Positions 25,527 through 31,689 of a DNA stretch of 64,000 nucleotides are shown one piece after another. Numbering within the stretch: position 1 is the first letter of the stretch; the number at the start of each line of letters is the position of its first letter. The notes under the pieces are model-generated. The model saw only the letters and a list, made by a program, of their open reading frames with translations. It made no database searches and was not told the origin of the DNA. The stretch covers positions 1 through 64,000 of the forward strand of contig JACRAY010000001.1 in NCBI GenBank assembly GCA_016213325.1. The letters run 5' to 3'. The translations under genes and the position numbers were made by a program. Origin of the DNA: Burkholderiales bacterium. Lineage in GTDB: Bacteria; Pseudomonadota; Gammaproteobacteria; Burkholderiales; Burkholderiaceae_C.

Positions 25527-26573
25527 CTAGCGGAACTGCTTCAGGAAACGGATATCGCCTTCGAAATACAGGCGCAGGTCGTTCACGCCGTAGCGCAGCA
25601 TGGTCAGGCGGTCCGGTCCCATGCCGAAAGCGAAGCCGATGAACTGCTCGGGATCGAGCCCCATGTTGCGCACGACCTGCGGGTGCACCTGCCCCGAGCC
25701 GGCGACTTCGAGCCACTTGCCCGCCAGCGGGCCGTGCCGGAACTGGATGTCGATCTCGGCGCTGGGCTCCGTGAAGGGGAAGAAGCTGGGCCTGAAGCGC
25801 AGTTGCAGGTCGTCGCTTTCGAAGAAGCGGCGGCAGAAGTCGGTGAAGACAACCTTCAGGTCCTTGAAGCTCACGTTCTCGCCCAGCCACAGGCCCTCGC
25901 ACTGGTGGAACATGGGCGAGTGGGTGGCGTCGCTGTCCACGCGGTAGGTGCGCCCCGGTGCGATCACGCGGATCTCGGGCATCACTGCATGGCCGGCGTA
26001 CTTCTTGATGTGGGCATGCGCGTAGCGCACCTGCATCGGGCTGGTGTGCGGGCGCAGGTTGTAGGGGATGCCGTCGTCGCCCTGGATGTCCACGTAGAAC
26101 GTGTCCTGCATCGAACGCGCCGGGTGGTTGGGCGGGTTGTTCAGCGAGGTGAAGCTGTGCCAGTCGCTTTCGACCTCGGGGCCGTCGGCCACGTCGAAGC
26201 CCATGCTGGCGAAGATCTGCTCGATGCGCTCCATCGTGCGCATCACGGGGTGCAGGCCACCCGGTTCACGCTGCCGCCCGGGCAGCGATACGTCGAGCGC
26301 CTCGGCCTTCAGCTGCAGCTCGAGTTCCTGGTCGGCCAGCGCCTGGCGGCGCTCGGCCAGCGCCGCCTCGATCGCCTGCTTGGCCTGGTTGATGGCCGCG
26401 CCGCGCGACTTCTTCTCGTCCACGGCAAGCGCGGCCAGGCCCTTCATGAGCTCGGTGATACGGCCGGACTTGCCGATGAACTGCGCCTTGGCGTTTTCCA
26501 GCTCGGCCGGGGTCGGCGCCTGGCCGAAGGCTTCACGCGCGCTGGCGACGATCGAATCGAGGTCTGTGGTCAT
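25527..26573 (-). CDS. pheS: Phenylalanine-tRNA ligase alpha subunit
   Basis: 348 residues. An N-terminal coiled coil (1-90) is followed by the class II catalytic core with H-P-x-R and D-T-F-Y-V motif 1 region, T-H-T-S-x-M-Q-like H-T-S-P-M-Q, and the C-terminal [10 protein letters not shown] motif 3. The start at 26573 gives the normal M-x-x-D-L-D-S N-terminus. No Shine-Dalgarno box is visible; the 8 bases before the ATG follow the T-run of an intrinsic terminator, so all transcription must come by read-through from rplT. Confidence 0.97.
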
Positions 26574-26581
26574 GTGAAATG

Positions 26582-26615
26582 AAAAACAGGGCTAGAGCCT
26601 TCGGCCCTAGCCCTG
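26582..26615 (-). terminator. Intrinsic terminator directly upstream of pheS (attenuator-like)
   Basis: Arms CAGGGCTAG and CTAGCCCTG with an inner GCC/GGC form a long stem followed by TTTTT (26582-26586) on the minus strand. Only 8 nt separate the T-run from the pheS ATG, leaving no room for a promoter. E. coli has the pheM attenuator at this position, but no Phe-rich small ORF is present here. Confidence 0.85.
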
Positions 26616-26634
26616 AACTTGCGGTTTGCACTGC

Positions 26635-26652
26635 GGCGCCCCAAGGGGCGCC
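26635..26652 (-). promoter_or_regulatory. Perfect GC hairpin upstream of the pheS terminator
   Basis: GGCGCCCC and GGGGCGCC with a 2-nt centre form a perfect dyad 20 nt upstream of the pheS terminator stem. A 15-codon ORF starting at 26653 on the minus strand (M-A-P-L-G-A-P-Q-C-K-P-Q-V-Q-G) runs through it and has no Phe codon. It may be part of an rplT/pheST control structure. Confidence 0.4.
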
Positions 26653-26661
26653 ATCGTGAAC

Positions 26662-27021
26662 TCAAGCAGCCAGCTTGGCCTTGACTTGTTCCACGATGCC
26701 GGTAAACGCCGCGGGATCGTTGTAGGCGATATCGGCGAGGACCTTGCGGTCGATCTCGATGCCGGCCTTGCGGATGCCGTTGGCGAACTGGCTGTAGGTC
26801 AGGCCGTTGGCCCGGGCTGCCGCATTGATACGCGCGATCCACAGCTGGCGGAACACGCGCTTCTTGGCGCGGCGGTCGCGGTACGCATACTGGCCCGCCT
26901 TCATCACCGCTTCCTTGGCGATGCGGAAGACGTTGCCGCGGCGGCCGCGGAAACCCTTGGCTAGTGCCAGGACCTTCTTGTGACGGGCGCGGGCCGTGAC
27001 ACCACGTTTGACGCGAGGCAT
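26662..27021 (-). CDS. rplT: 50S ribosomal protein L20
   Basis: 119 residues starting M-P-R-V-K-R-G-V and containing [13 protein letters not shown] and Y-R-D-R-R-A-K-K-R, typical of L20, which binds 23S rRNA early in 50S assembly. In E. coli L20 also represses its own operon at the infC-rpmI region. AAGGAG precedes the ATG. Confidence 0.98.
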
Positions 27022-27048
27022 GTGTTTTCTCCTTCTTTCGTCGTGGGG

Positions 27049-27252
27049 TTACAGGCCGGCGAACGGCAGCATCTGTGCCATGTGGCCCATGTTGGTCTCA
27101 TGGACCGTCACGGGGCCGCGCAGGTGCCGCTTGTTCTTGGTGGTCTTCTTGGTCAGGATGTGGCGCTTGAACGCCTGTCCGCGCTTGACCGTCCCACCGG
27201 GACGCACGCGGAAGCGCTTCTTCGCGCCGCTCTTGGTCTTCATCTTGGGCAT
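27049..27252 (-). CDS. rpmI: 50S ribosomal protein L35
   Basis: 67 residues, [16 protein letters not shown] ..., the canonical L35 sequence with its basic N-terminus and L-T-K-K-T-x-K-x-K-R-H-L-R-G. A strong AAGGAGG box lies 8 nt before the ATG. Located between infC and rplT as in most bacteria. Confidence 0.98.
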
Positions 27253-27327
27253 TGGAATGCCTCCTTCAAATTGTGCTCGTGAGGCGTCGCGGATGTTCCG
27301 CGCCTTGTTGGCCCCGAGCCACTTGTT

Positions 27328-27356
27328 TGGCGGGCAGCTTCAACTGCCCACCCTAC
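27328..27356. repeat. Intergenic dyad repeat, GTAGGGTGGGCAG family, copy 1
   Basis: Read on the minus strand: GTAGGGTGGGCAG, a 6-nt loop, then CTGCCCGCC. It lies between infC and rpmI inside the operon. The same unit occurs at 47408-47434 and, with a 7-nt deletion, at 30332-30351. Confidence 0.6.
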
Positions 27357-27366
27357 TCTGCCTAAC

Positions 27367-27969
27367 TCAAACCTTCTCCGGTGCCGTCGCGGGTGCCGGA
27401 TCGGCCGGCTTCGCCGCGGTGGGCTTCTTCTTGCCGGGGGCGATCATCATGATCATCTGCCGGCCTTCCAGCTTGGGGAACTGCTCCACCAGGATGGTGT
27501 CCCCGAGGTCGTCGCGCAGGCGCTGCAGCAGCGCCATGCCGATTTCCTGGTGCGTGATCTCGCGGCCCCTGAAGCGCAGCGTGATCTTGCACTTGTCGCC
27601 TTCGGCCAGGAACCTGCGGATGTTGCGCAACTTGATGTTGTAGTCGCCGTCATCCGTCCCGGGCCGGAACTTGACTTCCTTGATTTCGATGACGGTCTGC
27701 TTGGACTTCGCTTCCGCAGCCTTCTTCTGTTCCTGGTACTTGAACTTGCCGTAGTCCATCAGCCGGCAGACCGGCGGGCTGGCAGTGGCGGCAATTTCCA
27801 CCAGGTCCACGTCGAGCTCTCCCGCCATTCGCAGCGCCTCCTGCAGGCTCACGATGCCCAGGGGTTCGTTGTTGGGTCCGCTCAGGCGGACTTCCGGGGC
27901 CATGATTTCCCGGTTCAGGCGGTGCTTGCGTTCCTCGCGTTGGCGGCGGTCGCGAAAGTCAGTAGCGAT
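27367..27969 (-). CDS. infC: Translation initiation factor IF-3, AUC start
   Basis: 200 residues. The N-terminal domain has [11 protein letters not shown]-x-Q-K-K and the C-terminal domain K-L-R-N-I-R-R-F-L and F-R-G-R-E. The conserved N-terminal stretch [18 protein letters not shown] lies upstream of the first ATG (27903), in frame, and is preceded by codon ATC at 27967-27969 with an AAAGGA box 8 nt upstream and 20 nt after the thrS stop. Start at AUC is therefore chosen. IF-3 discriminates against non-AUG starts, so a rare start allows autoregulation, as known for AUU in E. coli. Confidence 0.95.
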
Positions 27970-27989: not shown

Positions 27990-29897
27990 TCAAATCTTCC
28001 CGGCAATGTCCGACGCGATTCTCTGGGAGAAGGCTTCGAGCGGCATGACGCCGAGGTCCTTGTTGCCACGCGCACGTACGGCGACGGCGCCAGCCGCCTT
28101 CTCCTTGTCACCAACGACCAGGAGGTAAGGCGGCTTCTGCAACGAATGCTCCCGTATTTTATACGTTATTTTCTCGTTGCGCTGGTCTACCTCAACCCTA
28201 AGCCCTTGATTTTGCAGCGTTTTGGCAACTTCCCGGGCGTACTCGGCCTGCTGGTCCGTGATATTGAGCACAACCGCCTGTGCCGGGGCCAGCCAGGCCG
28301 GCAGCGCGCCGGCGTGCTGTTCGATCAGGATGCCGATGAAACGCTCGAGGCTGCCCACGATGGCGCGGTGCAGGACCACGGGCCGGTGGCGGGCCCCGTC
28401 CTCGCCCACGTATTCGGCATCCAGCCGCTCGGCCAGGTTGAAGTCGACCTGCATCGTGCCGCACTGCCAGGGCCGGCCGATGGCGTCTTTCAGCGTGTAT
28501 TCGATCTTCGGGCCGTAGAAGGCGCCGTCGCCCGGGGACACCTCGAACTGGCAGCCGCTGGCGCGCAGAGACTCCATCAGGGCGTGCTCGGCCTTGTCCC
28601 ACAGCTCGTCCGAGCCGATGCGGGCGGCCGGCCGCGTGGCGACCTTGTAGATGATGTCCGTGAAGCCGAAGTCCTGGTAGACCTTCTGCAGCAGCGTCGT
28701 GAACGCGGCGCACTCGGCCAGGATGTGGTCTTCCGTGCAGAAGATGTGGCCGTCGTCCTGCGTGAAGCCGCGCACACGCATGATGCCGTGCAGCCCGCCC
28801 GTGGGCTCGTTGCGGTGGCAGTTGCCGAATTCGCCGTAGCGCAGCGGCAGGTCGCGGTAGCTCTTGACGCCCTGCTTGTAGATCAGCACGTGGCCCGGGC
28901 AGTTCATCGGCTTCAACGCATAGTCGCGCTTTTCCGACTCCGTCACGAACATGTTCTCGCGGTACTTGTCCCAGTGCCCCGTCTTCTCCCACAGCGACTG
29001 GTCCAGGATCTGCGGCCCCTTGACCTCCTGGTAGCCGTTGTTCTGGTACACGCGGCGCATGTACTGCTCCACCTGCTGCCACACCGCCCAGCCCTTCGGG
29101 TGCCAGAACACCAGGCCCGGTGCGTGCTCGTCCAGGTGGAACAGGTCGAGCTCGCGCCCGAGCTTGCGGTGGTCGCGCTTCTCGGCTTCTTCCAGCATCG
29201 TCAGGTACTGCTGGAGTTCCTCTTTCGTGGCCCAGGCCGTGCCGTACACCCGCTGCAGCATCTCGTTGCGGTGGTCGCCCCGCCAGTAAGCGCCGGCCAC
29301 CTTCATGAGCTTGAAGTGCCTGAGCTTGCCCGTGCTGGGCACGTGCGGGCCGCGGCACAGGTCTTCGAAGGCGCCTTCGCGGTACAGCGACACGTCTTCG
29401 TTGGCCGGGATGCTGGCGATGATCTCGGCCTTGTAGGCCTCGCCGAGCCCCTTGAAGTACGCCACCGCCTCGTCGCGCGGCAGCACGCGGCGCGTCACGG
29501 GCTCGTCCCGGGCGGCGAGTTCGCCCATGCGCTTTTCGATGGCGGCCAGGTCATCGGGCGTGAAGGGGCGCTTGTACGCGAAGTCGTAGTAGAAGCCGTT
29601 CTCGATCACCGGGCCGATCGTGACCTGGGCATCGGGGAACAGTTCCTTCACCGCATAGGCCAGCAAGTGCGCCGTCGAATGTCGGATCACCTCCAGCCCG
29701 TCGGCTTCCTTGGCCGTGACGATGGCGACCTGCGCGTCGCGGTCGATGGTGAACGACGTGTCGACCACCTTGCCGTCGACCTTGCCGGCCAGGGCGGCCT
29801 TGGCCAGGCCGGGGCCGATGGAGGCGGCGACGTCGGCGACCGACACCGGGCCGGGGTACTCGCGTCTGGAGCCGTCGGGGAGCGTGACATGGATCAT
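27990..29897 (-). CDS. thrS: Threonine-tRNA ligase
   Basis: 635 residues, normal for bacterial ThrRS: TGS domain (1-60), editing domain with H-S-T-A-H-L-L, class II core with M-N-C-P-G-H, zinc ligands including that Cys, and an anticodon-binding C-terminal domain. It charges tRNA-Thr and edits Ser. No Shine-Dalgarno box is evident; the 20 nt before the ATG follow an intrinsic terminator (29914-29950) that is part of a threonine attenuator. Head of the infC-rpmI-rplT-pheST-ihfA operon. Confidence 0.97.
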
Positions 29898-29913
29898 GGT
29901 GAAAACTCTGGGG

Positions 29914-29950
29914 GCAAAAACAAAAAGGCGCGGTCTTCAGCCGCGCCTTT
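29914..29950 (-). terminator. thrS attenuator: intrinsic terminator
   Basis: Minus-strand arms AAAGGCGCGG (29941-29950) and CCGCGCCTTT (29924-29933) pair perfectly with a 7-nt loop, followed by a T-rich tail TTGTTTTT (29914-29923 region). The T-tail ends about 17 nt before the thrS ATG, so thrS needs read-through. Confidence 0.9.
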
Positions 29951-30008
29951 CATTTCGAACCCGGTGACGAATTCAGAGCACGCGCGACCTTCCGACCTCA
30001 AGCGGTCG
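29939..30008 (-). promoter_or_regulatory. thrS attenuator: anti-antiterminator and antiterminator arms
   Basis: Four arms can be read on the minus strand. Arm 1, CGACC (30004-30008), covers Thr codons ACG ACC of the leader. Arm 2, GGTCGCGC (29982-29989), can pair with arm 1 or with arm 3, GCGCGGCT (29939-29946), through 8 bp with two G-U pairs. Arm 3 overlaps the 5' side of the terminator. A ribosome stalled at the Thr codons would mask arm 1, let 2:3 form, and prevent termination. A second GGTCG (29993-29997) next to the leader stop also pairs with arm 1. Confidence 0.7.
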
Positions 30009-30045
30009 TGAACCCTTGCCGGGTAGTTCGCGGTGTCATAACCAT
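29998..30045 (-). CDS. thrS leader peptide, Thr-rich
   Basis: 15-residue ORF M-V-M-T-P-R-T-T-R-Q-G-F-T-T-A with a stop at 29998-30000. Five of 15 codons are Thr (ACA, ACT, ACC, ACG, ACC). An AAAGG box lies 4-5 nt before the first ATG; a second in-frame ATG at 30039 would give 13 residues with all five Thr. It ends 47 nt before the attenuator terminator stem. Too short for standard gene calling. Its role as a translated sensor of charged tRNA-Thr is inferred from composition and the arms downstream. Confidence 0.72.
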   Translation of the reverse strand: MVMTPRTTRQGFTTA

Positions 30046-30087
30046 GGTGCCTTTCTCGCCCTTGTTCGTGGAAACCTTGTGCGGATT

Positions 30088-30273
30088 CTAACCCGCCGGG
30101 ACGAACCCCGTGCCGCCGCAGCGCGGGCACTCGGTGATCACGACCTGCTTTTCCACCTCGAAGTTCTCGTTGATGTTCTCGCTGTCGATGCGCAGCTCAC
30201 CCGTGCCGCTGCAGTCGGGGCAGCGCTGCTGGTTGAGCTTGCTCGCGTCGAAAACCCCGGTCTTCTCGGTCAT
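30088..30273 (-). CDS. Small DnaJ-type zinc-ribbon protein
   Basis: 61 residues with two C-x2-C-x-G-T-G units, C-P-D-C-S-G-T-G (18-25) and C-P-R-C-G-G-T-G (49-56), the DnaJ zinc-finger pattern without J domain. A GGGGAGA box precedes the ATG. It lies directly upstream of the thrS leader on the same strand and may share a transcript with it. Function unknown; a metal-binding or chaperone-like role is only a guess. Confidence 0.75.
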   Translation of the reverse strand: MTEKTGVFDASKLNQQRCPDCSGTGELRIDSENINENFEVEKQVVITECPRCGGTGFVPAG

Positions 30274-30331
30274 GGGTGTCTCCCCAGGTCAGGATGGGGG
30301 AGACTCTACAACCGAAAAGAGGCCGGGGCTA

Positions 30332-30351
30332 GTAGGGCTCCACTGCCCACC
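30332..30351. repeat. Intergenic dyad repeat, GTAGGG family, decayed copy
   Basis: GTAGGG joined directly to CTCC, A, CTGCCCACC: compared with 47408-47434, seven bases (TGGGCAG) are missing, so the left arm of the dyad is lost. Lies between aceA and the zinc-ribbon gene. Confidence 0.5.
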
Positions 30352-30360
30352 GCATCACGG

Positions 30361-31689
<1,329 letters not shown>

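Follow-up and report, generated by a model that had tools for sequence, protein, structure and literature searches.

How transcription into thrS, the gene for threonyl-tRNA synthetase (ThrRS), is governed is a question raised by the region directly upstream of it in the window (the whole 64,000-nt stretch of DNA analyzed here), where a Shine-Dalgarno site, a Thr-rich ORF, pairing arms and an intrinsic terminator follow one another on the minus strand between 30056 and 29916. Downstream, thrS precedes the genes for IF3, L35, L20 and PheS on the same strand, with which it is probably co-transcribed (infC, rpmI, rplT and pheS; the infC start is taken as the first ATG of its reading frame). The features of the locus are as follows:

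30085..30090, minus: probable -10 element TAGAAT of the leader promoter (7/12 matches including its -35)
30050..30056, minus: Shine-Dalgarno-like AGAAAGG of the leader (from sequence)
29998..30045, minus: leader ORF MVMTPRTTRQGFTTA plus stop, the start kept in relatives being 30039 (sequence, conservation)
30026..30043, minus: near-invariant block GGTTATGACACCGCGAAC (1.79-2.00 bits per position, 124 leaders)
30028..30035, minus: segment 1 CACCGCGA, within leader codons 2-4, complementary to 29987-29979 with one bulge
29993..30008, minus: stop-codon hairpin CGACC-GCTTGA-GGTCG (counterpart with covariation in a group of 26 sequences, the window not among them)
29979..29989, minus: segment 2 GGTCGCGCGTG, candidate partner of segment 1 or of the terminator 5' arm (window-alone p values not significant)
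29923..29951, minus: intrinsic terminator stem, segments 3 and 4 (terminator scan; terminator in 122/124 relatives)
29916..29922, minus: remaining T-rich tail (from sequence)
27990..29897, minus: thrS (Pfam TGS, tRNA_SAD, tRNA-synt_2b, HGTP_anticodon)
25527..27903, minus: infC, rpmI, rplT and pheS, downstream of thrS (Pfam)

The original prediction described a threonine attenuator here, with a 15-codon ORF containing five Thr codons and a ribosome site, and these are present: the ORF at 30045-29998 reads ATG GTT ATG ACA CCG CGA ACT ACC CGG CAA GGG TTC ACG ACC GCT TGA, with AGAAAGG upstream, and its second ATG (30039) is the conserved leader start, giving a 13-codon leader. The two pairs of exclusive arms proposed at that time can likewise be drawn. 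GGTCGCGC (29989-29982) and GCGCGGCT (29946-29939) can form the antiterminator pairing with eight pairs, two of them G-U, and CGACC (30008-30004) and GGTCG (29997-29993), which border the stop codon, can pair into a hairpin whose loop holds that codon. The complementarity of segment 1 to 29987-29979 is part of the predicted fold of the window. The terminator (29951-29923), said to be a perfect 10-bp hairpin, has 10 contiguous Watson-Crick pairs by eye and 11 pairs by scan, and its T-tail does run out before the thrS ATG, at a distance corrected from about 17 to 18 nt (last T at 29916, ATG at 29897). A consensus scan of 29400-30400 picked up promoters on neither strand, in keeping with the claim that none lies between the terminator and thrS, though the probable upstream promoter also falls below the threshold of that scan. 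Among relatives, TANNAT, matched 50 times in the 124 leaders, peaks 51-48 nt 5' of the leader start, and a purine-rich AAAGG is enriched at the Shine-Dalgarno positions of the 124 leaders.

Significance from the window sequence alone was rejected: its fold has a z of -1.34 relative to shuffles, 16/200 of which fold as well, and 0.8 terminator-like sites are expected by chance in shuffles of the surrounding 1-kb region. The attenuator call rises above chance because the leader, its Thr codons and the terminator are conserved in relatives. Rfam gives no match at the leader at gathering score, the window yielding only a tRNA elsewhere; sub-threshold matches at 29880-30120 include none of interest, and 12 relatives return only tRNA, with no Thr_leader or T-box family. 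Given the lack of a matching Rfam 15 family, family-based annotation will miss the thrS leader.

Conservation of the leader in relatives

We compared the regions upstream of thrS from 80 named loci and from 110 genomes of the window's family, which with few exceptions represent different genera. The relative search, in which 3/120 genomes had no match, yielded 116 matched relatives for the family set, six of which were omitted (partial matches, contig ends, matches starting at residue 4). With a leader defined as a short ORF with M-T-[PARVSQ]-R-T, an M-T-P-R-T leader (M-T-A-R-T in one case) lies 5' of thrS in 93/111 family regions, the window included, and in 33/80 named loci, across genera that include Acidovorax, Comamonas, Variovorax, Rhodoferax, Roseateles, Massilia, Janthinobacterium, Burkholderia, Paraburkholderia and Cupriavidus. 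Removal of duplicates reduced these 126 leaders to 124. Presence is nearly all-or-none, the 65 regions without a leader showing 2-4 mismatches to a 19-nt block in five cases, 6 in one and at least 7 in the rest.

The first codons of these leaders are almost fixed, with ACA at codon 2 in 123 of the 124, CCG at codon 3 in 123, CGA at codon 4 in 120 and ACT at codon 5 in 105. Beyond them Thr recurs at codon 6 (93/124) and codon 7 (67/124), all four Thr codons being used, and does so in one frame: the counts for frames 0/+1/+2 are 93/0/9 and 67/0/0, respectively. After codon 5, Thr makes up 25.7% of leader residues as against 4.5% in nine genes of the window; the mean is a frame-specific 4.27 Thr per leader, with only two in 10/124. 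The Thr codons conserved across relatives are those at positions 2, 5, 6 and 7 of the shorter leader (MTPRTT); the expectation of conserved Thr codons is borne out for these and not for ACG ACC close to the stop. Between leader and thrS, 122/124 cases have an intrinsic terminator; strong terminators are found in 92/93 family regions with a leader, 14/18 without and 0/111 mononucleotide-shuffled regions. The proposed check on relatives thus came out in favor of the leader ORF, its Thr codons and the terminator.

The leaders with only two Thr and the 18/111 family regions without a recognized leader, most of which still have a terminator, weigh against an attenuator. Among the 15/18 inspected, several keep a TAAAAT-like promoter and a terminator with the ORF gone, implying that the terminator there is leaky or that a different control operates. 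Of the 18, L187 carries a leader of the FRT type (MQIFRTSLPTS), and near-variants of the conserved block occur in L146 and L190. In L107, L114, L117, L139, L143, L161 and L189 a promoter-like AAAAT element and a terminator are kept, with no recognizable leader ORF. In a Polaromonas MAG (L004), some 150 nt before thrS, the block is decayed to GGCTATAACACCGCGAATT: its leader start reads ATA in place of ATG, and the Shine-Dalgarno-like site and terminator are still there.

The order-level set comprises 80 thrS upstream regions from 50 other families, many without a leader recognizable by reading. Thr leaders from other families include MSFRTTTTGTLNLG, MFKRTTTTRISR, MQLNRTTTTS, MFRTCTTTWC and MRTTTTHP, several of which share a CGA-ACT (Arg-Thr) core. 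Terminators are present within the last 260 nt in 60/80 regions, and strong ones within the last 200 nt in 57/80. The arms outside the family keep the same layout in different sequence words, e.g., ACAACCCG:CGGGTTGT and CTGAGCC:GGCTCAG in Aquitalea (L056). As judged from these comparisons, the putative Thr attenuator of thrS is widely conserved in Burkholderiales, the order being deduced from the named loci.

Arm pairing and the proposed switch

Pairing was examined in 122 leaders (2/124 dropped for want of a terminator) and in 27-sequence sets selected by visual search for a Thr leader, the majority being order-level regions; the joint-pairing and swap versions of the latter differ by one row (window versus L212), and five candidates were left unscored in the joint-pairing test as no leader was found. 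The joint 1:2 and 2:3 pairing of the 27 sequences including the window exceeds that of shuffled linkers (Fisher p 4e-7, ancestry ignored), with p <= 0.05 individually in 7/27 and p = 0.156 for the window. Outside the family, cognate 2:3 arms pair at -12.55 kcal/mol versus -11.02 kcal/mol for swapped arms (1/5000 permutations), and a 24-sequence set with about one sequence per family (20 family representatives, the window and three named loci) gives 12/5000. The same test within the window's family is not significant (520/5000). Covariation of the predicted antiterminator arms (2:3), a sign named in the original prediction, is seen between families and not within the window's own, with its almost constant arms or non-significant swap test.

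The 1:2 swap tests are weak or not significant (183, 1091 and 1392 of 5000). The helix predicted to free the terminator joins CACCGCGA (codons 2-4) with TCGCGCGTG. GTTCG, the complement of CGAAC, occurs in 33/90 family linkers versus 10.3 expected, an excess that gives a direct sign of 1:2 pairing in the family; outside the family it occurs in 10/54 versus 6.3 expected.

The CGACC:GGTCG pair is best read, from sequence, as the window's counterpart of a stop-codon hairpin that only some members of the family have. In a 26-sequence group this stop-in-loop hairpin keeps 4/6 pairs through changes on both sides, with 85.1% of cells paired. That group, alignment A1, consists of 26 of 30 sequences picked for containing GTTCGCGC, the window not among them, so that the invariant 1:2 helix in A1 is partly a result of the choice. 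RNAalifold did not recover the stop-codon hairpin, and as a general part it was rejected at 26/90 in the family (11.6 expected) and 8/59 elsewhere (5.8 expected).

To follow the arms with translation, we masked the ribosome footprint and folded the RNA up to the terminator loop. Across 149 sequences, a ribosome on codon 6 gives a sequestration of the terminator 5' arm of 0.708, one at the stop 0.554 and no ribosome 0.557, compared to 0.716, 0.680 and 0.706 with shuffled linkers (Mann-Whitney p 6e-8 and 5e-15, ancestry ignored). Compared to shuffled ones, the real linkers thus leave the terminator arm free with a ribosome at the stop or with none, the direction needed for attenuation. Moving the ribosome from the stop back to codon 6 raises sequestration by more than 0.1 in 59 of 122 sequences and lowers it by more than 0.1 in 7. 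The window has low contrast in this model (0.85 at codon 6, 0.85 at the stop, 0.74 free); hence, the claim for its own copy comes mainly via membership in the conserved set.

Taken with the conserved leader ORF, the in-frame Thr enrichment, the terminator and the antiterminator arms matched between families, we propose, with a probability of roughly 0.88, that a ribosome-mediated transcription attenuator sensing charged tRNA-Thr controls thrS. Transcription would start about 40 nt 5' of the leader. Under scarcity of Thr-tRNA the leading ribosome would stall on Thr codons 5-7 and cover segment 1, leaving segment 2 to pair with the terminator 5' arm and RNA polymerase to continue into thrS. With ample Thr-tRNA the ribosome would arrive at the stop codon and depart, segment 1 would capture segment 2, and the terminator would form and halt transcription upstream of thrS. 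The promoter position, the stalling, the termination and the control of the genes after thrS are inferred. The leader and its hairpins very likely allow these bacteria to make more ThrRS upon threonine shortage.

Two other explanations deserve consideration. The leader RNA might be an operator for ThrRS, or for another protein or RNA recognizing the block, with the peptide incidental. The conservation of the block nucleotide by nucleotide, third codon positions included and beyond what pairing with a variable segment 2 needs, speaks for such an operator. The enrichment of Thr at codons 6-11, however, is in frame only and accompanied by synonymous change, which indicates that translation is needed; moreover, the terminator is almost always present (122/124), and some other families lack the block yet keep a Thr-rich leader. 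We regard an operator as improbable for these reasons. Still less probable is a separate small RNA or peptide gene, with thrS served by a promoter of its own: promoter, ORF and terminator do form a complete short unit, and 60-170 nt separate the terminator from thrS in some relatives, but in the window and many relatives this distance is about 13-25 nt, into which a promoter would not fit, and the scan found none there. Further points against a free-standing gene are that the block is single-copy in 46/46 genomes, that it adjoins thrS in the 13 compared and that the gene downstream encodes the synthetase fitting the enriched codon.

The near-invariant block and known systems

A feature absent from the original prediction is the sharp-edged 18-nt block GGTTATGACACCGCGAAC around the leader start, with 1.79-2.00 bits at every position in 124 leaders. 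Third positions of leader codons 2-5 reach 1.34-2.00 bits versus 0.26-1.18 for thrS codons 2-15 in the same genomes. Its codons ACA (1/117 Thr codons) and CGA (4/167 Arg codons) are rare in nine genes of the window, and so is ACT (3/117 Thr codons), which mostly comes next. There is one exact copy in the window's genome; with at most one mismatch, the block occurs in 46/399 genomes of the order, as a single copy in all 46, and it adjoins thrS in all 13 genomes compared by position, the window included. Outside the order, a 369-genome sample of the class gave three single-mismatch matches against nine for a reversed control pattern, i.e., chance level.

The block is, from sequence, kept across several families in its exact nucleotides while the pairing arms change, and since the partner arms vary, pairing alone does not account for it. 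A GGTT/AACT hairpin closing the block was rejected by eye, as CGTT families keep ACT (members read) and 18/124 leaders have ACG. Tentatively, and with more doubt than confidence, we consider that the block might be a second functional element beyond the attenuator arm, giving the leader two inputs. As such, it could time the ribosome by way of slowly translated rare codons (ACA, CGA, then mostly ACT), or a trans-acting RNA or protein could recognize it. This frozen block is easy to mutate and so lends itself to asking which requirements a leader has besides cognate codons and hairpins.

Leader-peptide transcription attenuators are known from pheM-pheST and thrL-thrABC of E. coli, pheST being a synthetase operon. 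The locus described here resembles these enteric attenuators in its short Thr-codon ORF, alternative hairpins and intrinsic terminator 5' of the first gene, and differs from them in the gene (thrS), in sequence and in the near-invariant rare-codon block at the leader start. E. coli thrS is itself autorepressed, ThrRS binding its own mRNA and blocking translation; the gene is the same and the operon (thrS-infC-rpmI-rplT) similar, but the window has a Thr-codon leader and a terminator where E. coli has a ThrRS-bound mRNA. In Bacillota, the consulted part of one report places thrS-infC-rpmI-rplT operons under tandem T-boxes, again the same gene with a response to charged tRNA-Thr (PMC12452182). 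T-boxes bind the tRNA directly without a peptide, and Rfam finds no T-box match at the window leader. Synthetase genes of the hisS/hisZ family in bacilli have leader peptides with cognate codons; these concern His and Firmicutes, and a thrS attenuator in Burkholderiales is not described in the consulted part of that source (PMC2965389).

No earlier report of a thrS attenuator in Burkholderiales was found in the literature searched. In 2010 Lopatovskaya et al. (Mol Biol 44:128-139) reportedly took a comparative look at amino acid and aminoacyl-tRNA operons controlled by attenuation, and a thrS attenuator may already have been predicted there. If the leader works as proposed, many Burkholderiales set ThrRS through a ribosome sampling Thr-tRNA, with IF3, L35, L20 and PheS perhaps set along with it. 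Leader attenuation would then stand beside E. coli autorepression and, as far as the consulted part of the T-box report goes, Bacillota T-boxes as three solutions for thrS.

Neighboring features

Between rplT and pheS, a strong terminator-like hairpin with a T-run (26615-26587, minus strand) lies 14 nt 5' of the pheS ATG; no Phe-rich leader ORF was obvious by eye. On the other side, a 61-residue cysteine-rich protein (CPDCSGTG...CPRCGGTG; 30088-30273, minus strand) ends at the leader promoter; in Pfam it matches the DnaJ zinc finger and Anti-TRAP weakly, with scores below the cut-off. This zinc-ribbon-like protein was rejected as a candidate trans factor, a relative occurring in 9/270 stretches, most of which reach only about 400-450 nt upstream. 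The window has no tRNA gene before thrS. Among 60 of the 80 order-level regions scanned for tRNAs (L199-L258), 38 have a tRNA-Val(GAC) gene directly 5' of thrS on the same strand, and one further order-level region has a tRNA-Asp upstream of thrS; in the genomes bearing the tRNA-Val gene, thrS may share a transcript with the tRNA.
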